From Emcibacter sp. (GTDB lineage: Bacteria; Pseudomonadota; Alphaproteobacteria; Sphingomonadales; Emcibacteraceae): a stretch of DNA of 64,000 bases. Made by a program: the position numbers and the translations under genes. The notes under the pieces are model-generated. The model did not search any database and had not been told where the DNA came from. It saw only the letters and a list, made by a program, of their open reading frames with translations. The stretch lies in the NCBI GenBank assembly GCA_021774785.1, contig JAJFIQ010000006.1:1-64000 (forward strand), given 5' to 3'. Positions 19,057 to 55,687 of the stretch are shown piece by piece (the first letter of the stretch is position 1; each line of letters begins with the position of its first letter).

Positions 19057-19057
19057 G

Positions 19058-33653: not shown

Positions 33654-33673
33654 ATGAGAGGCTCTCTACAACA

Positions 33674-34630: not shown

Positions 34631-34639
34631 TTCAGATCA

Positions 34640-37376: not shown

Positions 37377-37763
37377 TTAAACGACTGCGGTCGCTTCAAT
37401 TTCCACCTTTGCACCATCTTCAATAAGGCCGCAAATATGGATGAGGGACATGACCGGAAATACTTTTCCCATAACCTCCTGATATACAGCACCAATTTCT
37501 TTCTGCTTATCCAGATATTCCTGTTTATGGGTCACAAACCAAGTCATCCGCACCACATGCTCCGGTCCGGCATCGCATTCTTTCAGTATGGCAAGGATAT
37601 TTAGTAATGCCTGCCTGATTTGGTCTTCCAAAGCGTCAGACACAACGATTTCATTCTCATCCCAGCCCACTTGACCTGCAACAAAGACGACATCGCCCTT
37701 TGCCTTGATTCCATTAGAATAGCCCTTGGGGCGTGGCCAGCCTGGTGGTTGTAAAATTTCCAT
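37377..37763 (-). CDS. RidA/YjgF-family protein
   Basis: This 128-residue protein has the RidA fold signature (FVAGQVGWDENE, RMTWFVTHKQEY, and the C-terminal VEIEATAVV). Family members hydrolyse reactive enamines/imines, and some act in aromatic pathways as deaminases. The usual catalytic arginine region (RxxV) is VVRMTW here. It begins 5 bases after korB and ends just before the terminator, so it is the last gene of the kor operon. Its part in that pathway is not known. Confidence 0.88.
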   Translation of the reverse strand: MEILQPPGWPRPKGYSNGIKAKGDVVFVAGQVGWDENEIVVSDALEDQIRQALLNILAILKECDAGPEHVVRMTWFVTHKQEYLDKQKEIGAVYQEVMGKVFPVMSLIHICGLIEDGAKVEIEATAVV

Positions 37764-37768
37764 TTTTC

Positions 37769-38602
37769 CTATACCTCAAATTGTTTTTGAATTTCTTCCA
37801 TGTCGCCTTTTTCATCACCGCATGAGAAACGGTAAGCTTCCCGACTGCCCCGGTAAAGAACACCTGTGTTAAAACCATCATCCGACATAAGTCGCCGTGC
37901 TGCCCGTGCAGGGTCATCCGTTTCACTAACCATCGCTTCATGCACCTGTTCTTTCCAGATCTTTTGATCCGGTCTGAACGTAACGCAGGGGCTTAATATC
38001 TGTACAAAGGAAAAACCCGGATGTTCTATGGCGTCGGCAATGACTTTTGCAGTACCTTTCACATCGCCAGAAAATGTCCGGGCAATGAAGTTTGCACCGG
38101 AAGCCAACGCAATCACAAGCGGGTGGAACGGTGACAGGCCTGTACCTCCCGGTGACAAAGCACTATCCCAGCTGGGGTCCGTAGTCGGTGAAGGCTGACC
38201 TTTGGTCATGCCATAAACTTCGTTATCCATGACAATATAAGTCATATCCGTATTACGCCGACAGGCATGAAGGAAATGATTGCCACCAATGGAAAAACCG
38301 TCCCCATCGCCACCAGCCGCAATGACCGTAAGCTCTGGTCGGGCAACCTTAACACCCGTTGCCACGGCAAGGCCGCGACCATGTATGGTATGAAAACCAT
38401 AGCTATTGGTATAGGCCGGAATCCGTGACGAACATCCAATGCCAGAAATAACGGCCGTATTTTCCGGCTTCAACTGCAATTTCGTCAAAGCCTGTGTGAT
38501 GGACAATAGAACATGATAATCACCGCAACCCGGACACCATACTGGTTTAAGTTTTGATTTATAATCACTTGCTTTAAATTTTTTCTGAATTATCTCGTTC
38601 AT
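37769..38602 (-). CDS. korB: 2-oxoacid:ferredoxin oxidoreductase beta subunit (KorB)
   Basis: This 277-residue thiamine-diphosphate-binding subunit has WCPGCGDYHVLLSI, ISGIGCSSRIP, HGRGLAVATGVKVARPEL and the ThDP motif GGDGDGFSIGGNHFLHA followed by MDNEVYGMTKGQPSPT. ATG 38602 overlaps the korA stop (ATGA) and has TTGGAG upstream. With KorA it oxidises 2-oxoglutarate (or a similar 2-oxoacid) to the CoA ester and reduces ferredoxin. In Thauera aromatica such a KorAB supplies the low-potential electrons for benzoyl-CoA reductase, which is divergently encoded here. Confidence 0.93.
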   Translation of the reverse strand: MNEIIQKKFKASDYKSKLKPVWCPGCGDYHVLLSITQALTKLQLKPENTAVISGIGCSSRIPAYTNSYGFHTIHGRGLAVATGVKVARPELTVIAAGGDGDGFSIGGNHFLHACRRNTDMTYIVMDNEVYGMTKGQPSPTTDPSWDSALSPGGTGLSPFHPLVIALASGANFIARTFSGDVKGTAKVIADAIEHPGFSFVQILSPCVTFRPDQKIWKEQVHEAMVSETDDPARAARRLMSDDGFNTGVLYRGSREAYRFSCGDEKGDMEEIQKQFEV

Positions 38603-40549: not shown

Positions 40550-41662
40550 ATGTCACCCACTGATCTGGTTAATCATAATCTGGTAAGCGAAATTACCGCA
40601 GAGGGGATTAACATTGAAAAACGCCCTGCCAAAACATCTGATGGTCAAGTGGTCGATGGCCTCTATAACTATTGGATCATTCTGGATAATCCCGCCCAAT
40701 ATAACTCCTACACTACTGAAATGGTAAAAGCTGTGATCCTCGCCTTCCGTGAAGCCAGCGCATCACGCGACGTGGTGGCGGTCGTTTTCACAGGATCTGG
40801 TGACAAGGCTTTCTGTACGGGTGGTAATACAAAGGAATATGCTGAATATTATGCCGGCAACCCACAGGAATACCGCCAGTATATGCGCCTTTTTAATGAT
40901 ATGGTTTCAGCCATTCTGGGCTGTGACAAACCGGTTATATGTCGTGTGAATGGCATGCGTATAGGTGGCGGTCAGGAAATTGGCATGGCATGCGATTTCT
41001 CCATCACCCATGATTTGGCAAAATTTGGTCAAGCCGGACCAAAACATGGTTCAGCCCCTATCGGTGGTGCCACAGACTTTCTGCCCATCATGATTGGCTG
41101 CGAGCAAGCCATGGTTTCCGGCACCCTGTGCGAGCCTTGGTCTGCTCATAAGGCCTACCGTATGGGTATTGTGGCTGACATTGTCCCTGCCCTGAAGATA
41201 GACGGTGAATTTGTTGCCAACCCACTGGTCATTACGGATCAATATCTGGATGGCTACGGCAAGATCGTTTTGGGTGAATCAAAATCAGGCGACGCGCTGG
41301 CCGACGGCAAGACAGCCCTTAAATCAGGTGAAGTTGACCTGAGTCTGCTGGATGCCAAGGTCGAAGAATTTTGCGCAAAATTCGTTACCACCTTCCCCGA
41401 CTGCATGACCAAAACACTGGAAGAATTACGCAAGCCGAAAATTGACGCATGGAACGCCAATAAGGAAAATTCCCGTGCTTGGCTAGCCCTTAACATGATG
41501 ACGGAAGCCAGAGCTGGATTCCGTGCTTTTAATGAACCCGTTGGGCGAGATCGCGAGATTGATTTCGTCGCACTGCGTCAAGCATTGGCTAATGGACAGC
41601 CTTGGACTTCTGAATTCACGGAAAGCCTGATGCCCGCATCCAGAGCAAATAAGGAGACATAA
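40550..41662 (+). CDS. oah: 6-oxocyclohex-1-ene-1-carbonyl-CoA hydrolase (Oah)
   Basis: This 370-residue member of the crotonase superfamily matches the Oah/BzdY/BamA ring-opening hydrolases in length and motifs: AVVFTGSGDKAFCTGGNTKEYAEYY, CRVNGMRIGGGQEIGMACDF and FGQAGPKHGSAPIGGATDFLP. It adds two waters to 6-oxocyclohex-1-ene-1-carbonyl-CoA and opens the ring to 3-hydroxypimelyl-CoA in the cytoplasm. AAGGAG lies before the ATG. It is the first gene of the bcr operon, 3 bases from bcrC. Dch and Had, which make its substrate, are not in the window. Confidence 0.9.
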   Translation: MSPTDLVNHNLVSEITAEGINIEKRPAKTSDGQVVDGLYNYWIILDNPAQYNSYTTEMVKAVILAFREASASRDVVAVVFTGSGDKAFCTGGNTKEYAEYYAGNPQEYRQYMRLFNDMVSAILGCDKPVICRVNGMRIGGGQEIGMACDFSITHDLAKFGQAGPKHGSAPIGGATDFLPIMIGCEQAMVSGTLCEPWSAHKAYRMGIVADIVPALKIDGEFVANPLVITDQYLDGYGKIVLGESKSGDALADGKTALKSGEVDLSLLDAKVEEFCAKFVTTFPDCMTKTLEELRKPKIDAWNANKENSRAWLALNMMTEARAGFRAFNEPVGRDREIDFVALRQALANGQPWTSEFTESLMPASRANKET

Positions 41663-41665
41663 GAT

Positions 41666-42829
41666 ATGGCAACCAGAGTAGATATTATAGACCACTGTCA
41701 GGCGCTTTACGATGACATGAATTTCACCGCCGCACGCGAGTGGAAAGATGCCAAAGAAGGCCGCCATGTCATTGGCTTCATGCCCATGTATGTACCGCGC
41801 GAGATCATTCATGCCGCTGGTATGATGCCGCTTGGTATTCTGGGTGGTGGCGACCAGTTGGAAGTTATTCAGGGCGATGCCTATTACCAAAGCTATATCT
41901 GCCGTATTCCACGCTCCACAATTGAGCTGCTGCTTACTGACCGTCTGGATTTTGTCGATGGTATGCTTTTCCCCAGCATTTGCGATGTGATCCGCAACCT
42001 CTCTGGCATGTGGAAGCTGCTCCGGCCCGATGTTTATTCCCATTATTTCGATGTGCCGCAAAACTATATGAAAGAGGTTGGCGGTGAATTCTATATGCAT
42101 GAGCTTAATGTACTCCGGCATGATCTGGAAAAGATTGGCGGTGTCACGGTCACTGATGAAGATCTGAGGAATTCCATCGCGGTTTATAATGAAAACCGTC
42201 GGCTTACCCGCGAACTTTATAAATTCCGCTCAGACAAGCCCTGGCTTGCCCCGTCTTCTGAAGTCTACCTTATCAACCGTGCTGGCATGTTAATCCCGGT
42301 AGAAGACCATAATCAGTTGATCATAGACTATATCGAAGCCGTTTCAGCAGAAGATCGTCCGAAACGTGATAACAGCCGTGTCGTTATCTCCGGCTCCTTC
42401 TGTGAGCAACCCCCCCTTAACCTGATCAAATCCATCGAGATGTCAGGCTGTTATGTGGTGGATGATGATTATATGCTGGTTAACCGCTGGTTTACTAAAC
42501 CCGTGCCCACAGATGGCGATCCTATTCAGGCTCTGTCCTATACCTTCCTTGAAGCATCAGTCAAAATGCCGTCCTGCTTTGAGCCGGATGAGGACATTAA
42601 AGGTCTGTTCCTGGTGGATACCGTCAAAGAAAATAATGCCGAAGGCGTTATCTTTGCCGCGACCAGCTTCTGCGATCCGGCCCTGCTGGAACGGCCCATC
42701 CTTCAGGATGTTCTGAATGATGCAGATATTCCTCACATCAGCTTCAAATATGCTGAAAACACCGGGCAGATGCAGCCCATCCGTGAACAGGCAGGAACAT
42801 TTGCCGATTCGATCAAACTTTGGAGTTAA
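41666..42829 (+). CDS. bcrC: Benzoyl-CoA reductase subunit C
   Basis: This 387-residue protein of the 2-hydroxyglutaryl-CoA dehydratase D/BcrC family has GFMPMYVPREIIHAAGMMPLGI, CRIPRSTIELLL and FPSICDVIRN. With BcrB it forms the benzoyl-CoA-binding module carrying a [4Fe-4S] cluster. Length equals the Thauera-type subunit (about 385) rather than BzdO. It follows oah after 3 bases and precedes bcrB by 4 bases. Confidence 0.93.
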   Translation: MATRVDIIDHCQALYDDMNFTAAREWKDAKEGRHVIGFMPMYVPREIIHAAGMMPLGILGGGDQLEVIQGDAYYQSYICRIPRSTIELLLTDRLDFVDGMLFPSICDVIRNLSGMWKLLRPDVYSHYFDVPQNYMKEVGGEFYMHELNVLRHDLEKIGGVTVTDEDLRNSIAVYNENRRLTRELYKFRSDKPWLAPSSEVYLINRAGMLIPVEDHNQLIIDYIEAVSAEDRPKRDNSRVVISGSFCEQPPLNLIKSIEMSGCYVVDDDYMLVNRWFTKPVPTDGDPIQALSYTFLEASVKMPSCFEPDEDIKGLFLVDTVKENNAEGVIFAATSFCDPALLERPILQDVLNDADIPHISFKYAENTGQMQPIREQAGTFADSIKLWS

Positions 42830-42833
42830 TGAC

Positions 42834-44129
42834 ATGAACGCACCACAAAGAAAACCATCTACCGACGTTCAAAAAGATGCCTCTATGGCCAAACAAAAGG
42901 CCATGATCGACGGCAACTTTGACCGCCTTGGTAATGTTAAAAATTCCGGTGAAAAAGTATCCTATACCTTTGTCCCGGGCAACCTGAATGAATTGATCAT
43001 GTGTTTCGACATGGTCGGTAACTATCCTGAGATTAACGCCATTCAGAACGGTCTTCGCAAGAAGTCCGGCGGCATGATAATGGAAGCTGAAAAATGGGGC
43101 CATTCCGAAGATGTCTGTACCTATGTTAAAGCAGACGTAGGCATGATGCGCAAAGGCAATGTTGGCCCCACAGGACAACCGATCCCAGAACCGGATATTC
43201 TAATGCTCAGCTATACGGGTTGTTATACTTTCCTGAAGTGGTTTGAACTTCTGCGTCATGACTATAAATGTGAAACCGCTATGCTCCATGTGCCTTACAC
43301 TGGCGACGGTGAAATCACCCAAAGCATGATTCAATATGTAGTCAAACAGTTGAAAGAGGAAGTTATCCCAAAATATGAGAAAGTCAGTGGTGTTAAATTT
43401 GACATTGACCTGCTTCGGGAAAATCTGGCCCATTCCGCCAAAGCTGAAGATGATTTTGTCTGGGTCCTGGAATCAGCCAAGAATAAACCCTCCCCCATTG
43501 ATGCCTATTTTGGCGGCATCTATTACATCGGCCCCATCTTCACCGCCTTCCGCGGCACGGATCTGGCGGTGGATTATTACAAGACCCTGCGGGCGGAAAT
43601 TGAAGAACGTATCCGCAAAGGTCAGGGGCCGATCACACCCGAAGGGGAAATGAAGAACGAAAAATACCGTATCGTAACCGAAGGCCCGCCTAACTACACC
43701 AGCATGCGCGAATTCTGGAAAATGTTCTACGATGAAGGCGCGGTTGTTGTGGCAAGTACCTATACCAAGGTGGGTGGGACATATGATTTTGGCTTCCGCC
43801 ATGATCCGTCACGGCCGCTGGAAAGCCTGGCTGAATATTGCATGCATTGTTACACAAACCGTAACTTACCAGAGCGGACACGGATGCTGGAAAGCTATAT
43901 CAATGACTATGAAGCTGACGGATTACTGATCAATTCCATCAAAAGCTGTAACAGCTTTGCCGCCGGTGAATTAATGATGATGCGCGAAGTTGAAAAACGC
44001 ACTGGCAAGCCAGCCGCTTTTGTTGAAACCGACCTTGTTGATCCGCGCTATTTCTCCGCTGCGAACGTCAAGAACCGACTGGAAAGCTATTTCCAGATGA
44101 TCGATCAAAAACGTCGTGCGGGCGTATAG
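42834..44129 (+). CDS. bcrB: Benzoyl-CoA reductase subunit B
   Basis: This 431-residue subunit pairs with BcrC. The recognisable segment LSYTGCYTFLKWFELLRHDY, a conserved GGIYYIGPIF block and IKSCNSFAAGELMMMREVEK supply the cluster- and substrate-binding cysteines. ATG 42834, four bases after the bcrC stop, is chosen; an in-frame upstream start would run inside bcrC. Length matches Thauera BcrB. The enzyme reduces benzoyl-CoA to cyclohexa-1,5-diene-1-carbonyl-CoA. Confidence 0.93.
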   Translation: MNAPQRKPSTDVQKDASMAKQKAMIDGNFDRLGNVKNSGEKVSYTFVPGNLNELIMCFDMVGNYPEINAIQNGLRKKSGGMIMEAEKWGHSEDVCTYVKADVGMMRKGNVGPTGQPIPEPDILMLSYTGCYTFLKWFELLRHDYKCETAMLHVPYTGDGEITQSMIQYVVKQLKEEVIPKYEKVSGVKFDIDLLRENLAHSAKAEDDFVWVLESAKNKPSPIDAYFGGIYYIGPIFTAFRGTDLAVDYYKTLRAEIEERIRKGQGPITPEGEMKNEKYRIVTEGPPNYTSMREFWKMFYDEGAVVVASTYTKVGGTYDFGFRHDPSRPLESLAEYCMHCYTNRNLPERTRMLESYINDYEADGLLINSIKSCNSFAAGELMMMREVEKRTGKPAAFVETDLVDPRYFSAANVKNRLESYFQMIDQKRRAGV

Positions 44130-44144
44130 GAAAAGGATAGATAA

Positions 44145-45461
44145 ATGAAATGTTTTATTGGAATTGACCTCGGCTCGACAACCACCAAAGCGGTTATCAT
44201 GACTGAGGATAAAAAAATCATCGGACGTGGCATCACTAACTCCCGCTCGAACTATGATACGGCGAGCCGCGTGGCTAAACAGGAAGCCATGATTGACGCC
44301 CGATTTACGCTATTACGTCAAAATCTGGACGGCAATGAGAAGCTGGGTGACAAGCAGGATGAATTTCTGGATGATCTAGAACGCAATTTTCGCCGTGAGC
44401 AGTTCGTAGAACAGCTGGACGACCTGAAGGCCACCTGCATTCGTAGTTCCGAAGGGGAAAGATTTGACGAAGTCCGTGAAAAACTGAATGAAGTATTGGA
44501 TAAAGTATTCATCCAGTTGCGCGAAGAATCTCTGGCCCTTTATGCCAAGGGTGCGACACGCAAATCTGATTTCTTCCGCGATATTGCGGGCGGTCGTTTC
44601 CTGACATTGTCTGAGGAAATTTCCAAGGAAGTTGGTATCAAATATGATTTTGCTCTCAATGTTTATGACAAATCCATCATTGAGGTGGAAAACCGACCAC
44701 CTGCGGGTAATCTGGAGGGTAAGTTCCTTGATGGTTTACGGAACCTGACCATCGAATCTCCTGAACTTGGCATTACCTTTGAAGATGTGCAGGGCCCTGT
44801 GAAAGATGCCCTTGCCATTGATCTGGAAGAAACATTTGTCGTCGGCACCGGTTACGGGCGTGTTCGTCTTCCCTTCCCGAAAGAACATATCCGTTCTGAA
44901 ATTCTCTGTCATGGGTTGGGCGCACATATGATGTATCCTGGCACCCGTACAGTGCTTGATATCGGCGGGCAGGATACCAAATCCATTCAGGTTGACCCCA
45001 AAGGTGTTGTGGATAATTTTCAGATGAATGACCGCTGTGCGGCAGGCTGTGGCCGGTATCTTGGTTATATCGCCGATGAAATGAACATGGGTCTGCATGA
45101 ACTTGGCCCCATCGCCATGAAATCGACCAAGGCGGTTAAGATTAACTCGACCTGTACCGTATTTGCCGGTGCTGAGCTACGCGACAGACTGGCACTGGGT
45201 GAAAAGCGCGAAGATATTCTGGCCGGACTTCATCGGTCTATCATCCTGCGCGCCATGTCAATCATTGCGCGTTCCGGCGGCATTCGTGATCAGTTCACCT
45301 TTACCGGGGGCGTTGCCAAAAATGAAGCGGCTGTGAAAGCCCTTCGTGAATTGGTGAAAGAAAATTACGGCGACGTAGTCATCAATATTGACCCTGATTC
45401 AATTTACACTGGTGCGCTGGGTGGTTCTGAATTCGCCCGCCGGGCCGTAATGGAGGCTTAA
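44145..45461 (+). CDS. bcrA: Benzoyl-CoA reductase ATPase subunit A
   Basis: This 438-residue ASKHA-fold ATPase of the BadF/BadG/BcrA/BcrD family has phosphate motif [13 protein letters not shown] and [10 protein letters not shown]. Cysteines that ligate the [4Fe-4S] cluster shared with BcrD are C298 (DRCAAGCG) and C337 ([12 protein letters not shown]). Compared with BcrD there is an extra helical insertion at about residues 55-130, as in Thauera-type BcrA and unlike Azoarcus BzdP/Q. It couples ATP hydrolysis to electron transfer from ferredoxin to BcrBC. Confidence 0.95.
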
Positions 45462-45462
45462 A

Positions 45463-46305
45463 ATGGCATTAACAATTGGAATTGACGTTGGAACGGGGGC
45501 TGTAAAAACAGCTTTATTCGAAATCAACGGTGATAAGATCAACTGGATTGATAAGCAAACCGACAGGATCAGAAACCGCGAGCCTTTTATGCTTGCCGAA
45601 GCTGCTTTTGACTATCTGCTGGAACAAAACGGTTATACTCGTGACGATATTGATTATGTGGCGACAACCGGCGATGCGGAAAATATTCCCTATTCCACGG
45701 GCCATTTCTATTCCATGACCACCCATGCCCGTGGGGCACTCTACCTTAACCCCGACGCGCGTTCCCTAATGGATATTGGCGCCCTGAACGGTAAAGCCAT
45801 AAGCATGGATGAAAAGGGCAAGGTACTGAAATATAAAATGACCAGTCAATGTGCTTCCGGTTCCGGACAGTTCCTTGAAAATATCGCGCGATATCTTGGC
45901 ATTGGTCAGGATGAGATTGGTGAGCTGAGCCAAAAAGCGGATGACCCAGAGGTCGTATCCGGCATTTGTGCCGTGCTGGCCGAAACCGATGTGATCAATA
46001 TGGTTTCCCGTAGTATTTCAGCGGAAAATATCCTTAAAGGTATCCATATCTCCATGGCGGCGCGCCTTATCAAACTGCTAAAATCCCTGAAAGTAAGGGA
46101 TGGTGTTGTGATGTGTACAGGTGGCCTTGCTCTTGACAGTGGGCTGGTTCTGGCTCTAAATGAAGCCATGGCAAAAAACAAGATGGATATGCCTGTAGTG
46201 TCCCATGAGGATTCCATATATGCGGGTGCCATTGGTGCCGCCATTTGGGGTGCTTTCAGACATGAAAAACTGGCACAGCTAGATAAAATGGCAGAAGCAT
46301 CCTAA
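45463..46305 (+). CDS. bcrD: Benzoyl-CoA reductase ATPase subunit D
   Basis: This 280-residue smaller ASKHA ATPase partners BcrA. The P-loop is TIGIDVGTGAVKTALFE; the cluster cysteines are C130 (SQCASGSGQFLE) and C169 (GICAVLAETDVINM). The C-terminus contains TGGLALDSGLV and EDSIYAGAIGAAIWG. It begins one base after the bcrA stop. Size is that of Thauera BcrD. Confidence 0.95.
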   Translation: MALTIGIDVGTGAVKTALFEINGDKINWIDKQTDRIRNREPFMLAEAAFDYLLEQNGYTRDDIDYVATTGDAENIPYSTGHFYSMTTHARGALYLNPDARSLMDIGALNGKAISMDEKGKVLKYKMTSQCASGSGQFLENIARYLGIGQDEIGELSQKADDPEVVSGICAVLAETDVINMVSRSISAENILKGIHISMAARLIKLLKSLKVRDGVVMCTGGLALDSGLVLALNEAMAKNKMDMPVVSHEDSIYAGAIGAAIWGAFRHEKLAQLDKMAEAS

Positions 46306-46349: not shown

Positions 46350-46592
46350 ATGGCTTTAATGATCATAGATGCCTGTACAGCTTGCGATGCTTGCGAACCG
46401 GTATGCCCCAACGAGGCTATTAAAGAGGGTGATCCAATGTATGTTATCGATCCCTTCAAATGTACCGAATGTGTCGGTGCGGATGATGAACCGCAATGCA
46501 AGCTTGTTTGCCCGGAAGAATGTATCGTCCCCAACCCCGATTTCGTGGAAAGCGAAGACGAACTTCAAGCAAAATATGATGCGTTGGATTAA
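46350..46592 (+). CDS. 2[4Fe-4S] ferredoxin, Alvin type, electron donor to BCR
   Basis: This 80-residue ferredoxin has a first motif CTACDACEPVCP, a second motif with the expanded loop CTECVGADDEPQCKLVCP, and a C-terminal helical extension of about 20 residues. This loop and tail define the low-potential Alvin-type ferredoxins that feed Thauera benzoyl-CoA reductase. It would be reduced by KorAB. It lies 44 bases after bcrD with AAAGGA upstream of the ATG. Confidence 0.93.
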   Translation: MALMIIDACTACDACEPVCPNEAIKEGDPMYVIDPFKCTECVGADDEPQCKLVCPEECIVPNPDFVESEDELQAKYDALD

Positions 46593-46907: not shown

Positions 46908-47885
46908 TTATACTGCTTTCGTAAAAGACAGACTTTGTGCAGGTTCAAAGCCGTTATTTTGTAAAAATCCGGCTAACGCCAATTGTTTAGCACCAACCTC
47001 TGTACGAACTGTATCCGCCCTCAGTACCGTGAGGTTAGCCATAAGTTGCGACAATAAAGCACTACCCACATTTTTGCTGGAATAGCCCGGATCAACGCCC
47101 AATGTATCAATGATGGCAGAGGGTTCTGTTTTACCAAATTCCCCAAAATCCACACGCGCCATGACAAAGCCGACCACATGCTCATCAAGCTCGGCCACCA
47201 GTGATACACGAATACCGGATTCGTTCAAAATCTCATCCATCTTGCGCTCAAAATATGATGAACGGCTGTAACCCATAATTTTACCATCAATCTTCATGAT
47301 TGCCGCCAAGTCGCCTTCGCTTAGACTGCGACAGGGCACCTGATCACGGGATAAGGCGGCTATATCATCACTTGAGGGATCACTATAATCAATTTCAAAG
47401 GGTTCATCTTCATCTTCGGCAACTTCTGTATCCAGGTAACTGGTTTCACGCTCATAAATAATGCGCGGAGCCAAAAGAAACCCGGTTGCCGCAAAGAAAT
47501 GCAGCATACTCTGATCATCCCAATCTGCCTGACTGCGAATTTCGTGAATATTCTTGTTTTTGATGATTGTCGACAGCTCTTCCATCAGATGATAACCGAT
47601 GCCCTTTCCCTGCGCGTCACTACTAACACCTATGCCATCAACCACGGCAACTGTCTTGTCCCCACCAAAAGCCCCCTGCTGAAGCCGGACAAGAAGATAA
47701 CCCTGCAAGTCACCATTATTCTCGTAAGCAATATAGATAAACTGCTTTGGCTCATTCAGAGCCGCCGTAACACGCCGTTCAAAGAAACCCTTACGGGAGC
47801 GGCCTGTGTTATTCTCATCTATTTCAATGACCTGTGGCAAATCATTCGCCGTAAGTGGTCTCATCTTTCCTTCAAATTCAGTCAC
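46908..47885 (-). CDS. Tandem GNAT acetyltransferase-like protein
   Basis: This 325-residue protein has two GNAT domains. The first, about residues 8-145, has VVDGIGVSSDAQGKGIGYHLMEEL. The second, about 185-320, has IIDTLGVDPGYSSKNVGSALLSQL, in which the acetyl-CoA loop is less canonical. The two are joined by an acidic linker. Substrate unknown. A related single-domain GNAT protein is encoded at 50451, and both lie around the hemerythrin/NnrS-like genes, so this small family may belong to one regulon. Confidence 0.85.
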   Translation of the reverse strand: MTEFEGKMRPLTANDLPQVIEIDENNTGRSRKGFFERRVTAALNEPKQFIYIAYENNGDLQGYLLVRLQQGAFGGDKTVAVVDGIGVSSDAQGKGIGYHLMEELSTIIKNKNIHEIRSQADWDDQSMLHFFAATGFLLAPRIIYERETSYLDTEVAEDEDEPFEIDYSDPSSDDIAALSRDQVPCRSLSEGDLAAIMKIDGKIMGYSRSSYFERKMDEILNESGIRVSLVAELDEHVVGFVMARVDFGEFGKTEPSAIIDTLGVDPGYSSKNVGSALLSQLMANLTVLRADTVRTEVGAKQLALAGFLQNNGFEPAQSLSFTKAV

Positions 47886-47911
47886 TTAAAATCTCCGTCA
47901 TTAGAATTTTG

Positions 47912-48418
47912 TCACCGCATCTCTGAATATGCCATCATCAGTTCCGCGTCCTCATCTTCTTCAATAATATCTTCCAGCATAGGTAACAGGGCCATTTCCT
48001 CTTTCTGAATATGTGAAATCATCCGTTCAATCAACTCAACGCCACTGATACGAAACTGAACCCATGATGCATCAACAAAGCCGTCTGAGCGCGCCGCTTT
48101 TGCCAATTCAGATAACAAATTACCCAAGGGCAAAATCACATTATGCTCACCCGTCAAAATAGAACTTATGGGGCTATCGCCCATGGCGGCAAGTAAGGGG
48201 AAAAGCTTCTCTTCCTCAAAAGAGAAATGATTTTTCACATCACATTCCACAAGATTGATAATATCCCCCAGAAGCGACGTTATTTCCGCATTGTCGCCCA
48301 CGGGGGTTTTCTTAGGCCCATATTTTTGAAATACCCCTTCAAGCCTTTCCAGAACACTGATGGTCACTAGATGCTCATCGTGAAGTGTCCTGGTAATGTG
48401 ATGGTCAAACGAAAACAT
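47912..48418 (-). CDS. Hemerythrin HHE-domain protein
   Basis: This 168-residue four-helix protein has di-iron ligand motifs HHITRTLHDEHLVTI at the N-terminus, HFSFEEEKLFPLL in the middle and HIQKEEMALLPMLEDII near the C-terminus. Such proteins bind O2 or NO, or repair iron centres (RIC/YtfE-like), and are common in nitrosative-stress loci. The motif GGTACTGTAATAC lies 30 bases before the ATG. It ends 26 bases before the tandem GNAT gene. Confidence 0.85.
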   Translation of the reverse strand: MFSFDHHITRTLHDEHLVTISVLERLEGVFQKYGPKKTPVGDNAEITSLLGDIINLVECDVKNHFSFEEEKLFPLLAAMGDSPISSILTGEHNVILPLGNLLSELAKAARSDGFVDASWVQFRISGVELIERMISHIQKEEMALLPMLEDIIEEDEDAELMMAYSEMR

Positions 48419-48447
48419 AGGGCTTTTATCCTTTAATATGGTATTTT

Positions 48448-48460
48448 GGTACTGTAATAC
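48448..48460. promoter_or_regulatory. GGTACTGTAATAC motif upstream of hemerythrin gene
   Basis: Best example of the GGTAYTGTRRTRC motif shared with the oah-bcr and DUF2249 promoters; its GTACTG/TAATAC halves form an imperfect palindrome 30 bases before the start codon. Confidence 0.5.
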
Positions 48461-48510
48461 TTATTTAAAAAGAAATCAACCAATATCTATATATTTAGCA
48501 CATCATGTTT

Positions 48511-49788
48511 TTAAGGAGTTTTCGGCTGGTTCCTGGTCATATGGCACACCACGGTAATCAGATAACAAAGCAGCCCGGACGCACCAATAAATCCAAGCAC
48601 AGCCCCGATCTTTATGATCACAAAAATATCAAGAATTACCCCAAAAGACACCACCGCCAGACCGGACAAATGTCCCACGGCATTGACCATTAAGAGCCTC
48701 TCATCCGCCATAGATGACGCCAGCATGGGTATTCCCCCACTGCCAGAGGTATGCATACTGCTCAGAAAGGGAATGATCCTTTGTAGAATTCCCGTAAGAA
48801 AGGTCAATAACCACCCGACGACAGCCAGAACACCAAAAAGCGTATGTCCCGTCTCCGACCAATATCCCATAAGACCCGCCGCACCCCATATGATGGTAAG
48901 GCCCAACATAGCCCAGCCAACCCGAATGAGCAGAAACGGTGTCCCAAGACGCTTTCTCATACGTGCGCCATAAACCCGCATCATGCCATAGAGATAAACC
49001 CCAACACCGACCATTGCCAAGAAAATACCAATCAATGAAACCCAATTAAGGTAAATATTGACCCCTACCAAAATTGCAATTATTGCAAGAGTATTGCTGG
49101 CAACAGACAGGCGACCAATCTTTTCCGACGGTGCTGGGGCCAAAGCAAACATGGGCACCAGAATATAAGAAAACCCCATTGCAAGAAGGCTCATAAAACC
49201 AAATATCGCCAAAATAAAATGACTTAACACCATAGCCAGATGATCAGACATAAACCCATGTTCCATATCAATAATTAACATGATACCCAGTATAAGCAAC
49301 CCAATCAGAGACAGCATAGCTGTCCAGCAATGCGCCATTATGGCTGCCATGCCCTGAACCCCGCGAATGTTATTTATTATCAGATAAAAGAATATCAGAA
49401 GACCAATAGCAGTTAATATTGCCCCCCCCATCATCCCAAGATGCTCACCCTGAAACATACCATAGGCCAACAGCATAAATCCCGGAATATAAACCCATGA
49501 TAACAGACGGCAAATCCAGAACCCTCTAAAAGCTTTCCGCGTTGCCACCGAAAGTAGCTGTAATGACGCCCCGATCACTGTCATGGTCAATATACCCAAT
49601 GTGGCAATATGAATCATGCTCAATAATGGTCCGCTTCCGATCATATAACCGGTCAAGTCAGCCGCATTGAAGAAAAGCGTCACCCAGAACAACATATAAC
49701 AAATCATTGCCACCATAAAAAACCGAAAAGGAATAGACGGCGGCAAAAGCCGGCTATTGGCTCCCGATAAAAAATTTGTCCCGATCAT
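48511..49788 (-). CDS. Polytopic NnrS-like heme/copper-type membrane protein
   Basis: This 425-residue protein has about 12 membrane helices and several in-membrane histidines (LLSMIHIATLG, IMAHCWTA, VLSHFILAI, SETGHTLFGV), a pattern seen in NnrS and heme-copper-oxidase-like proteins involved in nitric oxide metabolism. The identity is by pattern, not by a firm signature. It is translationally coupled to the DUF2249 gene by an ATGA overlap. Confidence 0.6.
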   Translation of the reverse strand: MIGTNFLSGANSRLLPPSIPFRFFMVAMICYMLFWVTLFFNAADLTGYMIGSGPLLSMIHIATLGILTMTVIGASLQLLSVATRKAFRGFWICRLLSWVYIPGFMLLAYGMFQGEHLGMMGGAILTAIGLLIFFYLIINNIRGVQGMAAIMAHCWTAMLSLIGLLILGIMLIIDMEHGFMSDHLAMVLSHFILAIFGFMSLLAMGFSYILVPMFALAPAPSEKIGRLSVASNTLAIIAILVGVNIYLNWVSLIGIFLAMVGVGVYLYGMMRVYGARMRKRLGTPFLLIRVGWAMLGLTIIWGAAGLMGYWSETGHTLFGVLAVVGWLLTFLTGILQRIIPFLSSMHTSGSGGIPMLASSMADERLLMVNAVGHLSGLAVVSFGVILDIFVIIKIGAVLGFIGASGLLCYLITVVCHMTRNQPKTP

Positions 49789-50345
49789 GATTTATTTCCT
49801 TGGTAAATCCGAACCTTCAACCCATCTTCATTTTCTTCAAGCGTCTCTGCATACCAATTTTGCTCGCTAAGTTCCGGATAAAGATAGATGGGATCGCGTA
49901 TAAGACGCACCATGAAGTTATCCCCCCCTTCTCCGCCCTTAATCACTTTCAGAATAGCAATCATGGGGTTTGGCGGCTCTAGCTTACGCAAATCCATTTC
50001 CAGCATCCCCTCATGCCAATATAAGGGAAAAGGCGGCAAGTCAGAAATATCCGGCAGGGCAGGAAGATCTACCGTATCCTGTTTTTTAAAAAATACCCGC
50101 CAATGCTTGTCAGATATTGGAACGGCATTACTTTCATAACCCCTTGCCCCCAACATACGTCGCAATGGCACCGGATCAAACGGGGCGTCAATCAATAAAA
50201 TGTCATCTGATGATAGCAAATCCACCTTCACCAGTATCTGTTGCAGGGGGTCAACACCCCCCGTCAATATGGGGCGCACATCCATATGCACGCATTCATC
50301 TACATTAAGGTTAGCAAACCATACCGGTTGTATTCTGCCTGTCAT
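49785..50345 (-). CDS. Tandem DUF2249-like protein
   Basis: This 186-residue soluble protein has two TusA-fold/DUF2249-like modules. The first begins DVRPILTGGVDPLQQIL with a following LLIDAPFDPVPLRRML. The second begins MLEMDLRKLEPPNPMIAIL. These proteins are typically found beside hemerythrins, nitric-oxide-related genes and Rrf2 regulators; biochemical role unknown. ATG 50345 has a GGAT site at good distance; ATG 50354 is an alternative. An in-frame extension up to 50648 exists but is antisense to the GNAT gene and unlikely to be translated. Confidence 0.7.
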   Translation of the reverse strand: MTGRIQPVWFANLNVDECVHMDVRPILTGGVDPLQQILVKVDLLSSDDILLIDAPFDPVPLRRMLGARGYESNAVPISDKHWRVFFKKQDTVDLPALPDISDLPPFPLYWHEGMLEMDLRKLEPPNPMIAILKVIKGGEGGDNFMVRLIRDPIYLYPELSEQNWYAETLEENEDGLKVRIYQGNKS

Positions 50346-50388
50346 ATTTTTCATCCACAACAATGTCTTGAAGGTAGCACAGTAAATT

Positions 50389-50401
50389 GGTATTGTAATG
50401 C
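50389..50401. promoter_or_regulatory. GGTATTGTAATGC motif in DUF2249/GNAT divergent promoter
   Basis: Third copy of GGTAYTGTRRTRC, 44 bases before the DUF2249 start and 50 before the GNAT start. Confidence 0.45.
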
Positions 50402-50450
50402 GCAAATTATAGTTAAAAACAAAAAAACTGTCAGGGAATGTATAGCTTAA

Positions 50451-50936
50451 ATGGCTAATATTAATGAGTTTCACGAGGAAAGCGGCATAACTGTCCGTAA
50501 TGCCTGTGATGGCGATCTGCTCCGCATTATCGCACTGGACGGACAGATAAGTGGTATAAACAAGCAGGAATACTGGCAGGAATCCTTTCGCCGTTTCAGT
50601 GGTACAAAAGACGGACGCCATTTCCTTGTTGCGGAAAAGGACGGCCATATAGCCGGTTTCATCGTTGGGGAAATTCGGGCATGGGAATTTGGCTCACCGC
50701 CCGGTGGCTGGGTCTTCTCGCTGACCGTTGATCCGGATACGCGCCTTGGCGGTGTGGCGACCATAATGTTCGACACCATCTGCCGTTGCTTCAAACAAGC
50801 CGGGGTCGACAAGGTTCATACCATGATCGACCGCAGCAACATCACCGTCATGTCTTTCTTCCGAAGTCAGGGCATGATGGCGGGTAGCAGCATTCCATTA
50901 GAGATAGATTTATCCGAGAGGGAGGAGTCGTCATGA
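50451..50936 (+). CDS. GNAT-family N-acetyltransferase
   Basis: This 161-residue single-domain acetyltransferase has acetyl-CoA-binding motif VDPDTRLGGVATIMFDTI and a C-terminal IDRSNITVMSFFRSQGM. Its stop overlaps the Rrf2 gene start (ATGA), so the two are translationally coupled. Substrate unknown. Confidence 0.88.
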   Translation: MANINEFHEESGITVRNACDGDLLRIIALDGQISGINKQEYWQESFRRFSGTKDGRHFLVAEKDGHIAGFIVGEIRAWEFGSPPGGWVFSLTVDPDTRLGGVATIMFDTICRCFKQAGVDKVHTMIDRSNITVMSFFRSQGMMAGSSIPLEIDLSEREESS

Positions 50937-51367
50937 AATTGCAAAGATCAAGCCGACTGGCCCTTTATTCCGTCCTAGAACTGGCTTCACGTCCTGACGA
51001 GCAATTATCCGCATCGGATATTGCGGCGAAATTTGATGTCTCGCTCAACCATCTGGCCAAGGTATTACGTGACCTTGGCCGGGCCAGAATGGTTGAAGCC
51101 GTACGCGGCGCGGGGGGCGGTTACCGTTTTTGCGGCAATGCCAGACGTACAACCCTGAAAGATGTGGTGGAAGTATTTGAACCGATCACCCTCCATGATG
51201 CTGGTGGATATGAACCAGGTGACAAAACCGATTTCGGTGCCTCCCTCGCGGTGGTCCTCGGCGAAATAGACGACATCGCCGTGGCCACGCTGGATTCCAT
51301 CACCATCGAAACCATGCTGAAGCTCACCAACAGGGTTCAGAAGCAGACCGCCTTAGAAACTGCCTGA
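50933..51367 (+). CDS. Rrf2-family transcriptional regulator without Fe-S cysteines
   Basis: This 144-residue protein has an Rrf2 winged helix (SRLALYSVLELASRP, ASDIAAKFDVSLNHLAKVLRDLGRARMVEAVRGAGGGY). The IscR/NsrR three-cysteine cluster ligands are missing; the only cysteine is in YRFCGNA. In other respects it resembles NsrR in size and in the GxGGGY wing. It is coupled to the GNAT gene and adjacent to the hemerythrin/NnrS-like module, so it may control that module through the GGTAYTGTRRTRC motif (inference). Confidence 0.88.
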   Translation: MKLQRSSRLALYSVLELASRPDEQLSASDIAAKFDVSLNHLAKVLRDLGRARMVEAVRGAGGGYRFCGNARRTTLKDVVEVFEPITLHDAGGYEPGDKTDFGASLAVVLGEIDDIAVATLDSITIETMLKLTNRVQKQTALETA

Positions 51368-51544: not shown

Positions 51545-52462
51545 CTATCTGCCGAATATATCCGCTGGTGTCAGAATGGGGTCCAGAACGCCAGCCTTGA
51601 ATATCAACACACGAAACAGGCAAAATCCAAACATGATTGATCCCGCAGCGGCAAGGGTCGTAATGAAATTAACCGGTGCAAACATAAGGATCACTAAAGG
51701 CAGAACGGTCCCAATGCCAATAACGCCGTATAAGAATGGTCGTGATAGAAAATCCTTTGTCAAAAGCTCGTAAGACTGTTGCGCACCTTTGGAACCATGT
51801 TTCGCCCCATGCAGCAGGCTCAATATGGTCAACAGCACCGCCGCCACCAGAATGGTCTGGACCGTACCAACCATGGTCAATTGGCTTTCACCAGCGACAG
51901 GGAACCCAAAGGCATTCAGCGCCAGAACCAGCGATGTTCCCGCCAACAAGCCATATAACATACTCGATACCGGCATTAATCCGGTACTCCATAATGCTAT
52001 TGCCGTGGAATGTGACATGGCGAAACCCTGATAGACCACAACCATCATCGCGCCTGCCATGGCAAGCCAATAGACAGGCATCACAAAAGCGTCCGGCACC
52101 ATACCAAACAGTTGTCCAAAGACATGCACCACCCCAAAACCAACAAAGAAAATAATACCCCATAGGCCCCGGCTGATCCACGACCGATCAGGGCGTAACA
52201 TGGCCCGCCATGATTTTCTTGGCACCCCCATATGGGTCAAATGAAAGAATGTTTTACCCACGCCGGTTATCAACAAGCCCAGAATAATACCCGGCATGAA
52301 ATTCAACAGCATGGACGTGAGGAACAGCCCAGCACCCGTTTCCCCGCAAAAGAATGCGGTTGCCATTGGTGTATCCCAGTAGCGTTGGAACCGATAGCCG
52401 GATTTAAAGGTGCGCCCGACAAACCCGGGGCGAAGTACATTTTTTAAACTCATATTAGCCAT
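51545..52462 (-). CDS. NrfD/DmsC-type membrane anchor of molybdoenzyme (PadD-like)
   Basis: This 305-residue integral membrane protein has about eight helices of the NrfD/PsrC/DmsC class, with CGETGAGLFLTSMLL near residue 40 and AMSHSTAIALW near 165. It would take electrons from the Fe-S subunit and reduce quinone. It is third in the operon after the catalytic and Fe-S subunits, 16 bases behind the latter. In Thauera-type bacteria the same arrangement forms phenylacetyl-CoA:acceptor oxidoreductase; other DMSO-reductase-family complexes are possible. Confidence 0.8.
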   Translation of the reverse strand: MANMSLKNVLRPGFVGRTFKSGYRFQRYWDTPMATAFFCGETGAGLFLTSMLLNFMPGIILGLLITGVGKTFFHLTHMGVPRKSWRAMLRPDRSWISRGLWGIIFFVGFGVVHVFGQLFGMVPDAFVMPVYWLAMAGAMMVVVYQGFAMSHSTAIALWSTGLMPVSSMLYGLLAGTSLVLALNAFGFPVAGESQLTMVGTVQTILVAAVLLTILSLLHGAKHGSKGAQQSYELLTKDFLSRPFLYGVIGIGTVLPLVILMFAPVNFITTLAAAGSIMFGFCLFRVLIFKAGVLDPILTPADIFGR

Positions 52463-52478
52463 TGTAATTCTCCTCAGA

Positions 52479-53093
52479 TTAATCGATGTAATATACTTTA
52501 GGACGGGTATTTTTTTCCGCTAGCGGCTGTTGGCCCTTTCGATCCCGGATCAGCTTACTAACCTTGCTGTCCGGGTTATCAAGATCACCAAATATACGCG
52601 CATCCGTCGGGCATGTAGCGACACAGGCCGGGTCTTTGCCCGCATCAACGCGCTCTGAGCAGAAATCACATTTGGTGAAGGTTCCGCATTCAAAGCGGGA
52701 ATAGCCCTGCTCCTCAAAGGGGGTCAGATTGCCATCACCGAAAAGTCCACCCTTTATCTGGGTTTCCTCAATCTGGGTTCGCATATCATAGGGGCAGGCC
52801 ACCGCACAGGAACCGCAGCCAATGCATTTGGCCCCGTCCACCATGACAATACCGTCATCGCGGGTATAGGTTGCCCCGCTTGGGCAGACTTTCTCGCACG
52901 GGGCATCTTCACAATGATTGCAGATGGTCGGCAGATAGGTACGCGACACATTAGGATATTCGCCCGTTTCCGCACTTAGAGTACGGGTGAAGAACACACC
53001 ATCCGGCAGTGAGTTCTCTTGCTTACAGGCCACCGTACAGGCATTGCAGCCGATACAGCGTTTGACATCAAATACCATTCCATAACTGGTCAT
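52479..53093 (-). CDS. Four-cluster Fe-S subunit of molybdoenzyme (PadC-like)
   Basis: This 204-residue DmsB/PhsB-type ferredoxin has four cysteine groups (CIGCNACTVACKQE, CNHCEDAPCEKVCP, CIGCGSCAVACPYD, CDFCSERVDAGKDPACVATCP), enough for four [4Fe-4S] clusters. It has no signal peptide, consistent with a cytoplasmic complex. Its start overlaps the catalytic subunit stop by 4 bases. It carries electrons from the molybdenum subunit to the membrane anchor. Confidence 0.92.
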   Translation of the reverse strand: MTSYGMVFDVKRCIGCNACTVACKQENSLPDGVFFTRTLSAETGEYPNVSRTYLPTICNHCEDAPCEKVCPSGATYTRDDGIVMVDGAKCIGCGSCAVACPYDMRTQIEETQIKGGLFGDGNLTPFEEQGYSRFECGTFTKCDFCSERVDAGKDPACVATCPTDARIFGDLDNPDSKVSKLIRDRKGQQPLAEKNTRPKVYYID

Positions 53094-55687
53094 TGCACGG
53101 CCTTTCCGTCGCTATAGCTATAAAGGCTGCCTTCTCCCTTTAATTCATCGGGGATTTCGTCAAGCTTGGTCAGCTTCACCCGACAAACGGACTCACATTG
53201 TGCACTACAGGCATCGGTATTTTCTAAATCCGCCGGAAGCATGTCATTGAAATGACCGCCGCCGTATGGCACACCCGCATTCTGTGACATCATCCGCGAC
53301 AGGGAATTGGACACGCCGATAGTTTCAGGATGTATGCCCTCTGTCAGGCCAAGCCTGCCATAAATCTTGCCATATTGGGATTCCACAAGAACAAGGTCAC
53401 CATGTTCCAATCCTTTAGCTGCGGCTGTTTTGGTATTCAATTGTAGCGCGGTATGCACCGGATCGCGGTAAACAATATCCTTGATCCACGGATTGCTCAG
53501 GCTTTCACCGAAATTGAGCTGGATATCCTTAAACGTGATGGCATAAAGATCATATTCGCCGTTATCCTTAAGCACAGGTTCCAGAACAGGTGTTGGCAGG
53601 GGTTGATAATCACCCCAATGCCATTCATCACGGATAGGAACCTCAGCATTATCCATGGCTTTTCTGAGGCCATCGCGCTCGCGGATAATATCCTCAATAT
53701 AGAAATGCAGACGCATTCCGTCCCACGGTTTATACCATTTGTCGGTCCGACGCGGGGTTACCGCATGACCATGTTCAATATACCAGTCAAGATCTTTACC
53801 GTTCCAGTTCAGACCCTTGCGCCGGGCCAGTTCCTTGTCACTATGTTTCTGGTCCAGCTCCAATTTCAGATTGGGGCTTTCCTCGAAACCATTTACGATA
53901 TTCAATACACTGTTCCAAACCTCCAGCAAACCAAGCCCTTCTGAAAGATCATTGAAGATGTCTTCCTCGCTGCGGGTATCATAAAGCGGGTCGGTCATTG
54001 GCTGACGCAGACACATGCCTTCGGTATGGGGTGGCTCGATCATGGTCATGTTCCAGCTTTCCAGTGAATCATGGCCCGGCAGAATAATATCGGCAAAATT
54101 ATTGGTATCATTAGGCACAATATCAATGGCCACAATGAACCGCATGTCACGCATGATATTGAACCAGTCTTCCCGCTTTCCGGGCAGGCTCCAGATCGGA
54201 TTGGAGTGACAGATCAGCATAACATCTGGCTTGAAATCCATACTGAATTTTTCAGGATTATTCCAGACTTCCACATTCAGGTGGCCCGGATGAACGCCAA
54301 GCGGGAAATAGCTCATCAGATCCATATTATCCGGCGGAAAAGAAAAGCCAGGATGGGGGCCTAATTGATGAGGGGTTCCCAGCAATTGACCGCTGTCGCC
54401 CTCTGCCACATGGCCGTTATCCACCTTCTGGTCATCTAGCGTTGCACCCACATGACCACCCGGTACATCTATACTGCCCACCAGCATATTCACCAGCTTG
54501 AAAGCATGGTTGGACTGGGTTGAATATTTATGGGCATGAGCGCCCCGGTAATAGTTATATCCGGCGGGGCGCAGCGGAAGGGTACGGCCATCAATATTAA
54601 TAGTATTGCCAATATCTGCGGCCTCGGAAAATTCGCGGGCAATACGGCGGATAGTATCCGCGGGGACGGTCGTAATTTCTGACATCTGTTCTGGCGTGCA
54701 TTCTGCCAGAATATCCTTGAAACGCTGGAAAGATGGCCTGCAGGGCTTGCCACCCACTTCGTAATTTCCTTCCAAGGCATATTCACCTACTGATTTATCA
54801 TCATAGGTTTTGGCTTTATTGTCTTTACTATCCCAGACATATATTTTGCCATCACTATCACGCACGAAATAACCATCATCACCCACCAGATATGGCGCGT
54901 TAGTATCATTTTTCAGGGCTTCATAATCACAAAGTCCCTCTTCTATCAGCACATGACAAAGCCCCAAGGCAAAATGGCGATCTGAGGCGGGCTTAATGGG
55001 TACCCATTCTTCCGCCTTGGCCCCACCAATGGAAAGCCGTGGCTCCACACAGACCACCCGCATGTTGCGTTCAACACGGGCATTAGCCACATGGAAGGCC
55101 TGAGCTGCGGTATGAAGGTGAGAGGAAAAACCATCTCCACTACCGTTGTTAATCCAGTAATTACAGTAATTTACATCATTTGCAGCCGCAAAAGTGGAAT
55201 GGATGAAGCCGTTCATGGGGTGATAGCCACCGCCACAGAAACTACCGGCTGTCGAAAAATAATTACTGTTTCCCACCACCAGTGGCCAGGCCCATAAATA
55301 AAGTTTCTGGAAATCAGCAATAGACGGTAATAACTTGCGAGGATCTTCATCAATGGAAGTTTTTAGCTCACGGATGGTCGTTTCCATGGCTTCTTCCCAA
55401 CTGATCGGAACCCACATGGGGTCAATACCCGGCCCCTTTTCGGGATTAGTGCGTTTCAGGGGCGTTTTAAAGCGTGTCGGGTCATAATGGCGCATGATAG
55501 CCGCATTACCCTTGGGACAAAGACGGCCCATATTAGCCGGACTGTCGGGATCACCTTCAATCTTGTTAATAACACCATCGTCTGTCACATGAACAATCGT
55601 GTTGCAGGAATGTATGCACATTTTGCAAGAGGACTTTTTCCAGGTTCCAGACTTCATGGAATTTTGAACGGGGGTTTGGTCGGTCAT
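53090..55687 (-). CDS. Molybdopterin oxidoreductase catalytic subunit, phenylacetyl-CoA:acceptor oxidoreductase-like (PadB-like)
   Basis: This 865-residue DMSO-reductase-family protein has an N-terminal [4Fe-4S] motif CKMCIHSC with a fourth cysteine in GRLCPKGNA. The probable molybdenum-ligand cysteine is in AGSFCGGGYHP near residue 150, and a C-terminal molybdopterin-binding domain follows. There is no twin-arginine signal, so the active site faces the cytoplasm, as needed for an acyl-CoA substrate. Size (about 97 kDa), the three-gene order with a four-cluster Fe-S protein and NrfD anchor, and the nearby benzoyl-CoA reductase genes all fit PadBCD, which oxidises phenylacetyl-CoA to phenylglyoxylate with quinone. 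The substrate is inferred; polysulfide, arsenic or other oxyanion reductases of the same family usually carry Tat signals. Confidence 0.75.
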   Translation of the reverse strand: MTDQTPVQNSMKSGTWKKSSCKMCIHSCNTIVHVTDDGVINKIEGDPDSPANMGRLCPKGNAAIMRHYDPTRFKTPLKRTNPEKGPGIDPMWVPISWEEAMETTIRELKTSIDEDPRKLLPSIADFQKLYLWAWPLVVGNSNYFSTAGSFCGGGYHPMNGFIHSTFAAANDVNYCNYWINNGSGDGFSSHLHTAAQAFHVANARVERNMRVVCVEPRLSIGGAKAEEWVPIKPASDRHFALGLCHVLIEEGLCDYEALKNDTNAPYLVGDDGYFVRDSDGKIYVWDSKDNKAKTYDDKSVGEYALEGNYEVGGKPCRPSFQRFKDILAECTPEQMSEITTVPADTIRRIAREFSEAADIGNTINIDGRTLPLRPAGYNYYRGAHAHKYSTQSNHAFKLVNMLVGSIDVPGGHVGATLDDQKVDNGHVAEGDSGQLLGTPHQLGPHPGFSFPPDNMDLMSYFPLGVHPGHLNVEVWNNPEKFSMDFKPDVMLICHSNPIWSLPGKREDWFNIMRDMRFIVAIDIVPNDTNNFADIILPGHDSLESWNMTMIEPPHTEGMCLRQPMTDPLYDTRSEEDIFNDLSEGLGLLEVWNSVLNIVNGFEESPNLKLELDQKHSDKELARRKGLNWNGKDLDWYIEHGHAVTPRRTDKWYKPWDGMRLHFYIEDIIRERDGLRKAMDNAEVPIRDEWHWGDYQPLPTPVLEPVLKDNGEYDLYAITFKDIQLNFGESLSNPWIKDIVYRDPVHTALQLNTKTAAAKGLEHGDLVLVESQYGKIYGRLGLTEGIHPETIGVSNSLSRMMSQNAGVPYGGGHFNDMLPADLENTDACSAQCESVCRVKLTKLDEIPDELKGEGSLYSYSDGKAVQ

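Follow-up and report, generated by a model that had tools for sequence, protein, structure and literature searches.

Indole, which is formed from tryptophan, is typical of the N-heterocyclic pollutants. Within the dimethyl sulfoxide (DMSO) reductase superfamily of molybdoenzymes, EbdABC performs the water-dependent hydroxylation of a benzylic carbon, and PadBCD, described in Thauera and Aromatoleum, oxidises phenylacetyl-coenzyme A (CoA) to phenylglyoxylate. According to a 2018 review, nitrate-reducing sewage yields oxindole, isatin, dioxindole and anthranilate as intermediates of indole, and Desulfobacterium indolicum yields oxindole, isatin and anthranilate (PMC6221969); in the same text, the mechanism of anaerobic indole degradation is still referred to as a "black box" (PMC6221969). 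The DNA analysed here, hereafter the window, is a stretch of 64,000 nucleotides from Emcibacter sp. (GCA_021774785.1, JAJFIQ010000006.1, positions 1-64,000), in which positions 51545-55687 encode a three-subunit molybdoenzyme complex. The genes that recur with its relatives suggest that the complex is probably an oxindole-oxidising step, and not a phenylacetyl-CoA enzyme. Among the titles listed by searches of open-licence papers, none describes this gene set, which may have been printed elsewhere.

The complex and its relatives

The complex is encoded by three open reading frames (ORFs), all on the minus strand and spanning exactly the coordinates given above: a catalytic subunit (53090-55687; 865 aa, 97.0 kDa), an iron-sulfur (Fe-S) subunit with four Cys motifs (52479-53093; 204 aa, 22.3 kDa) and an NrfD-type membrane anchor (51545-52462; 305 aa, 33.1 kDa). 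The first two ORFs overlap by 4 bp, and a gap of 16 bp separates the Fe-S and anchor ORFs. The Pfam domains Molybdop_Fe4S4, Molybdopterin and Molydop_binding in the catalytic subunit, several Fer4 domains in the Fe-S subunit and NrfD in the anchor all score above cut-off. The molybdopterin domains, the N-terminal 4Fe-4S motif (C21-C24-C28-C57) and the fold place the catalytic subunit in the DMSO reductase family; in an alignment of 38 rows, C21, C24, C57 and C151 are invariant and C28 is nearly so, and Cys151 is, as we presume from the family, at the likely Mo ligand position. The four Cys motifs of the Fe-S subunit are expected to hold four 4Fe-4S clusters, and the anchor, with 8 hydrophobic windows (two overlapping), is presumed to be the quinone side of the complex. 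Since the order of the three genes is kept in five Emcibacter-type relatives (L011-L014 and L032, the anchor ORF of L014 being short, 241 aa), their arrangement is not due to chance, and 51545-55687 is a real, conserved enzyme complex.

No twin-arginine (Tat) motif precedes the first Cys cluster of the catalytic subunit, and no hydrophobic segment was found in it. The motif test and Pfam therefore bear out a Tat-less catalytic subunit with an NrfD anchor, as claimed in the original prediction, and the complex has the make-up of PadBCD, i.e., molybdopterin, Fe-S and membrane anchor subunits without a Tat signal. The further claim that the missing signal points to PadBCD does not hold, the feature being non-diagnostic: by the same test, in which some open ORFs have no certain start, 67 of 86 relatives are also devoid of the motif.

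The relatives under comparison are the best 80 of at least 585 confirmed in a scan of named genomes, and many of these genomes are metagenome-assembled genomes (MAGs) on short contigs. Five relatives are 91-95% identical to the window (best segment of the scan) and belong to MAGs labelled Emcibacter or Alphaproteobacteria. The catalytic-subunit tree (86 rows, without reference PadB, Arr or Psr sequences) was built with a quick method whose only support value is the Shimodaira-Hasegawa-like approximate likelihood ratio test (SH-aLRT). In this tree, a 12-row clade (SH-aLRT 100) unites the window with the rows of the five Emcibacter-type relatives, with G532, Desulfocarbo indianensis, L017 and L024, and with two rows that carry the label Gammaproteobacteria or Pseudomonadota. 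Together with two Desulfosporosinus rows and four acidobacterial ones, the latter 45-48% identical, it forms a wider clade of 18 rows (SH-aLRT 100); L004, L005 and L124 fall in a distant clade. The closest relative outside the Emcibacter type is that of G532 (67% identical, same phylum); G403 and G404, within the 12-row clade, are 62-63% identical.

Comparison with the NCBIfam models gave no score above cut-off for the catalytic subunit, the oxyanion and sulfur reductase models included (PhsA, 181.3 vs. 694; ArrA, 138.4 vs. 1600; TtrA, also far from reached); ebdA scored 57.5 vs. 2000, and no PadB model is among the matches. The predicted structure (mean predicted local distance difference test score 88.4) was aligned with 998 chains; the best match of this model is ArrA (Z 31.2, root-mean-square deviation 2.9, 705 residues, 22% identity), followed by PsrA (Z 30.7, 2.8, 680 residues, 23% identity), many superfamily members scoring close together and the ranking being uninformative on the substrate. 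These two closest solved structures, together with the conserved Cys where the Mo ligand would be expected, might suggest a relative of ArrAB or PsrABC that reduces an oxyanion, a sulfur compound or another acceptor. However, structural matches are only 19-23% identical, the reductase cut-offs are far off, a Tat signal is absent and the partner genes described below are aromatic-catabolic. Judged by cut-offs and partners, and with no reference reductases in the tree, a function of this kind appears highly improbable; in agreement with the original prediction, none of the reductase models reached its cut-off.

Recurring partner genes and a predicted indole route

Partner genes were counted over the 12 genomes of the 12-row clade. 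The first partner is xdhBCA, encoding a xanthine-oxidase (XO)-family hydroxylase. XdhA sequences at least 64% identical to the G399 copy occur in 8 of the 12 genomes, in five of which they share a cluster with the complex: xdhBCA is directly upstream of it in G399, G400 and G401, and is separated from it by fdhD in G532 and by a hydantoinase gene and padEFGHI in Desulfocarbo. In G398, G402 and the window's genome (G000), xdhBCA lies at other loci, and the window-genome ortholog (G000:C19:100467-102812) is 91% identical to the G399 copy; the Desulfosporosinus cluster holds a 41-45% identical version. The GAK..GE motif is kept in all five aligned Xdh sequences, whose nearest solved relatives are 4-hydroxybenzoyl-CoA reductase (306 bits), 6-hydroxypseudooxynicotine dehydrogenase (263.9) and quinoline 2-oxidoreductase (257.7). 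XO-family enzymes often hydroxylate ring carbons adjoining nitrogen. The XO genes of the window itself (18562-21295) were rejected as this partner, their large subunit aligning only in parts (22-31%).

The second partner is an isatin-hydrolase-type gene (PF04199), present in 7 of the 12 genomes (G000, G398-G402 and G532). Two of the seven proteins, those of G000 and G532, were compared with solved structures. The window-genome protein (L172:9909-10694, on G000:C19 near 488 kb) matches isatin hydrolases with 318-332 bits (331.6 to isatin hydrolase A) vs. 94.4 for the best other structure; the G532 protein, whose gene is 30 bp upstream of padE, matches them with 279-329 bits vs. 119.4. Both keep the motif HTGTH.D.P.H, and copies 83-84% identical to the window-genome hydrolase exist in the other five Emcibacter-type genomes. 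Two further PF04199 copies in G000 were discarded as isatin hydrolases (on C11, only 37.9% over 190 residues; at C19:72748, no match at E 1e-10). In 2 of the 12 genomes, Desulfocarbo and G407 (L024), a hydantoinase stands at the locus in place of the isatin hydrolase, and one is also found in the Desulfosporosinus cluster outside this clade; the hydantoinase matches a broad enzyme class. Neither an isatin-hydrolase-type gene nor a locus hydantoinase was found in G403, G404 and G405. G403 also encodes a PF04199 protein (L015, 413-1216, minus strand) about 7 kb from the complex on the same contig, 26-29% identical to isatin hydrolases.

The third partner is a 2-oxoacid oxidoreductase. In 4 of the 12 genomes, pad genes are located beside the complex: padEFGHI in G532 (L104), Desulfocarbo (L018) and G407 (L024), and at least padH and padI on the short contig of G405 (L017). 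PadE, PadG, PadH and PadI of Desulfocarbo pass their NCBIfam cut-offs, and PadF misses by 2 bits. In the six Emcibacter-type genomes, IorA and IorB follow the isatin hydrolase, the contig of G398 ending after IorA. PadI stayed below its cut-off in the window genome (best 54.7 bits vs. 700), and the five Emcibacter-type relatives had no PadI match at E<=1e-30, PadE to PadH not having been sought in any of them. Among 157 plasmid records matching IorA, three stretches were examined: on the Tritonibacter plasmid, a related IorAB is two genes from a 53%-identical relative of the isatin hydrolase, and on those of Azospirillum and Caballeronia it shares a gene run with a 'salicylyl-CoA 5-hydroxylase', the Azospirillum run also including an AMP-binding protein and a Rieske dioxygenase.

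These genes are arranged differently in different organisms. In G399, a single contig carries every part except the benzoyl-CoA reductase genes (bcr) in a span of about 17 kb, one strand bearing the complex and xdhBCA, the other a TonB receptor, an alkylhydroperoxidase-like gene, an AraC-type regulator, the isatin hydrolase, IorA and IorB; in G400, the hydrolase and the complex are on separate contigs. The order is isatin hydrolase, padE to padI, complex, fdhD and xdhBCA in G532; xdhBCA, hydantoinase, padE to padI and complex in Desulfocarbo; and xdhBCA, 2-oxoacid oxidoreductase genes, hydantoinase and complex, in a row, in Desulfosporosinus (L131). Because the 67%-identical relative lies between padEFGHI and xdhBCA, the tie of the PadBCD-type complex to a phenylglyoxylate-type dehydrogenase is, as judged from gene order, real.

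From the gene identities, the clade, the co-localisation and one partner that closely resembles isatin hydrolases of known structure, we infer oxindole as the substrate, as well as every reaction and the order of the steps. XdhBCA would hydroxylate indole at C2 to oxindole. The complex would use water to oxidise oxindole at the C3 methylene, forming isatin via dioxindole, and would pass the four electrons released through its Fe-S clusters to quinone; isatin would be the product of a PadBCD-type oxidation because oxindole and phenylacetyl-CoA share the unit aryl-CH2-C(=O)-X. Ring opening to isatinate would fall to the isatin hydrolase or, in other lineages, to a hydantoinase-type amidohydrolase, and IorAB or PadEFGHI would then decarboxylate isatinate with CoA; isatinate is 2-aminophenylglyoxylate, so that a phenylglyoxylate-type dehydrogenase would yield anthraniloyl-CoA. 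The ring would then be reduced by Bcr, that of the window being proposed for anthraniloyl-CoA or benzoyl-CoA. That the complex is a membrane-bound, cytoplasm-facing PadBCD-type Mo dehydrogenase oxidising oxindole to isatin in an anaerobic indole pathway can be regarded as moderately likely. The wider proposal is that Xdh, the complex, isatin hydrolase or hydantoinase and IorAB or PadEFGHI form an anaerobic indole gene set, in which the complex would be a quinone-linked, isatin-forming oxindole dehydrogenase with a substrate new to the PadBCD type, and that the set occurs in Emcibacter-type alphaproteobacteria, in another pseudomonadote (G532), and in Desulfocarbo and Desulfosporosinus; taken jointly, the balance tips only slightly in its favour.

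Two other substrates can be read from the same neighbourhoods. Another benzylic or N-heterocyclic compound treated by the same logic, e.g., a substituted indole or a phenylhydantoin-like ring, would agree with a ring-opening enzyme that varies by lineage and with the breadth of the hydantoinase match, but it is very unlikely given that the isatin-hydrolase match is specific where set against structures and that the gene is present in seven genomes. Alternatively, oxindole might be hydrolysed and CoA-activated, the resulting 2-aminophenylacetyl-CoA being oxidised by the complex and then decarboxylated. The hydantoinase and PadEFGHI neighbours fit this scheme equally and the substrate would stay a CoA ester; however, it leaves the isatin hydrolase without a role, and two ligase queries (PaaK and a benzoate-CoA-ligase-like one) found no ligase in the window or in 16 other loci, which renders it quite unlikely.

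Several observations weigh against oxindole as the substrate. The top solved relative of Xdh, 4-hydroxybenzoyl-CoA reductase, is no N-heterocycle enzyme, and such matches do not single out one substrate for Xdh. PadEFGHI is assigned by NCBIfam to phenylglyoxylate, and the G532, Desulfocarbo and L024 copies are at or near the cut-offs where scored. In the window genome, the parts occupy three loci (complex and bcr on C24; xdhBCA on C19 at about 100 kb; hydrolase, IorA and IorB on C19 at about 488 kb), and the Azospirillum and Caballeronia stretches with IorAB yielded no such hydrolase. G403 and G404 lack PadI, a close Xdh and an isatin-hydrolase-type gene (IorAB was not sought there), so that either the complex can exist without its partners or the assemblies miss them; G405 has padH and padI and neither a close Xdh nor an isatin hydrolase; G407, whose contig ends at the hydantoinase, has no close Xdh; and no partner was found within 8 kb in the four acidobacterial loci. 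Finally, the window genome has PaaK (681.8 vs. 646.3) next to an indolepyruvate ferredoxin oxidoreductase (IOR) and a 2-oxoacid oxidoreductase; phenylacetyl-CoA is therefore probably present, i.e., the organism can probably make it.

Phenylacetyl-CoA and a second subfamily

In the original prediction, the complex is probably PadBCD, on a route from phenylacetyl-CoA to benzoyl-CoA. Read in this way, it would convert phenylacetyl-CoA to phenylglyoxylate, deliver electrons to quinone and ultimately supply benzoyl-CoA to Bcr. This reading draws on the padEFGHI genes beside relatives, the missing Tat signal, the bcr genes of the same window, PaaK in the genome and 2-oxoacid oxidoreductases that might accept phenylglyoxylate. 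PaaK, the alpha subunit of IOR and the 2-oxoacid oxidoreductase form one cluster at G000:C19:361000-369000 (L126). The claim holds insofar as pad genes adjoin four members of the 12-row clade, and the search for padEFGHI elsewhere that it called for succeeded in L104, L018, L024 and partly L017 but, with PadI as the protein sought, not in the window genome or the five Emcibacter-type relatives. The recurring partners are instead an XO-family hydroxylase and a ring-opening enzyme, and a phenylacetate route would need neither Xdh nor isatin hydrolase. Phenylacetyl-CoA as the substrate is thus left unsupported: the partners are not of the phenylacetate type, PadI is absent from the window genome and PaaK stands beside another subfamily in G191 and G232, and in G486 padEFGHI lies close to bcr without the window clade. 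Identity with PadBCD appears doubtful; the complex may nonetheless have a dual role, phenylacetyl-CoA included.

The proximity of bcr, also invoked in the prediction, can be confirmed only in part. The operon bcrC-bcrB-bcrA-bcrD (41666-46305, plus strand) is real, all four benzoyl-CoA reductase subunits exceeding their NCBIfam equivalog cut-offs; it is preceded by oah (40550-41662, above its equivalog cut-off) and followed by a ferredoxin gene (46350-46592; Fer4, 25.8 vs. 21.1). It lies about 5 kb from the complex, with a separate block of genes (46908-51367) in between, and among the five Emcibacter-type loci bcr genes occur within the fetched stretch only in L032. A cytoplasm-facing oxidation of a methylene group and the nearness of bcr are consistent with the original prediction.

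The second subfamily, 26-28% identical to the window, is found beside PaaK in 2 of 6 loci (L106 and L107), PaaK passing the cut-off in G191 (699 vs. 646.3) and falling just short in G232 (619.4); no PaaK was found at L124, L089, L067 and L077, some of which are on short contigs. In the catalytic subunits of L106, L107 and L124, the N-terminal cluster motif is missing its third Cys. G486 harbours one member of this subfamily and carries padEFGHI (PadI, 820.3 vs. 700) within 7 kb of bcr; no window-clade member at E<=1e-150 and no Xdh above 34% were found in it, nor any further match at E<=1e-150 in the families of G532 (4 genomes) and G486 (64 genomes). PadI was searched for in 300 and then 399 genomes of the order of G270, disclosing G486 and G532 and then also G771, in which the 32 kb examined contain no complex of either subfamily; in 398 genomes of the phylum, apparently including G191 and G232, none was found at E<=1e-100, no positive control being matched in that search. 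The neighbouring genes suggest the second subfamily as the better phenylacetyl-CoA candidate, and which subfamily is the true PadB is put forward as a lead.

Surroundings of the complex and comparison with known systems

On the far side of bcr, korA-korB-ridA (37377-40335, minus strand), encoding a 2-oxoacid:acceptor oxidoreductase and a RidA-family protein, are divergent from oah-bcr. The RidA-family gene (PF01042; 37377-37763, minus strand) directly follows korAB; RidA, which we take to be an imine/enamine hydrolase, would be suited to taking off the amino group once the ring of anthraniloyl-CoA has been reduced. The block between bcr and the complex, retained in L032, encodes GNAT proteins, a hemerythrin, a DUF2249 protein, a hydrophobic protein without Pfam match and an Rrf2-family regulator (50933-51367, plus strand; TIGR00738, 88.9 vs. 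73.3), the last convergent with the complex. Beyond bcr, a GMC oxidoreductase, a gluconate-2-dehydrogenase-3-like protein and a TonB receptor are encoded at 31579-37132; relatives of these genes directly follow the complex in L012 and L013, and the TonB receptor is also present in L014. The Old-yellow-enzyme-family protein encoded at 27811-29262 (plus strand) has about 100 C-terminal residues outside the family matches.

Compared with PadBCD of Thauera and Aromatoleum, the likeness consists in the padEFGHI genes beside relatives of the window complex, and the difference in its partners, Xdh and a ring hydrolase with no phenylacetate-CoA ligase, the reference PadB sequences being outside the comparison; a padEFGHI or PadB-like gene alone is thus no proof of phenylacetate degradation. 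ArrAB and PsrABC have the fold and the N-terminal 4Fe-4S motif in common with the window catalytic subunit, and PsrABC presumably also the plan of an Fe-S subunit and an NrfD-type anchor; the window subunit differs in being 22-23% identical, without a Tat signal, in another gene neighbourhood and below the ArrA and PhsA cut-offs. EbdABC differs in its low identity (18% over 713 residues) and in the missed ebdA cut-off. As for anaerobic indole degradation, it is known from metabolites whereas the window pathway is predicted from genes, and a recurring gene set with a recognisable isatin hydrolase makes the mechanism directly testable, gene by gene; the predicted intermediates agree with those named in the review (PMC6221969).

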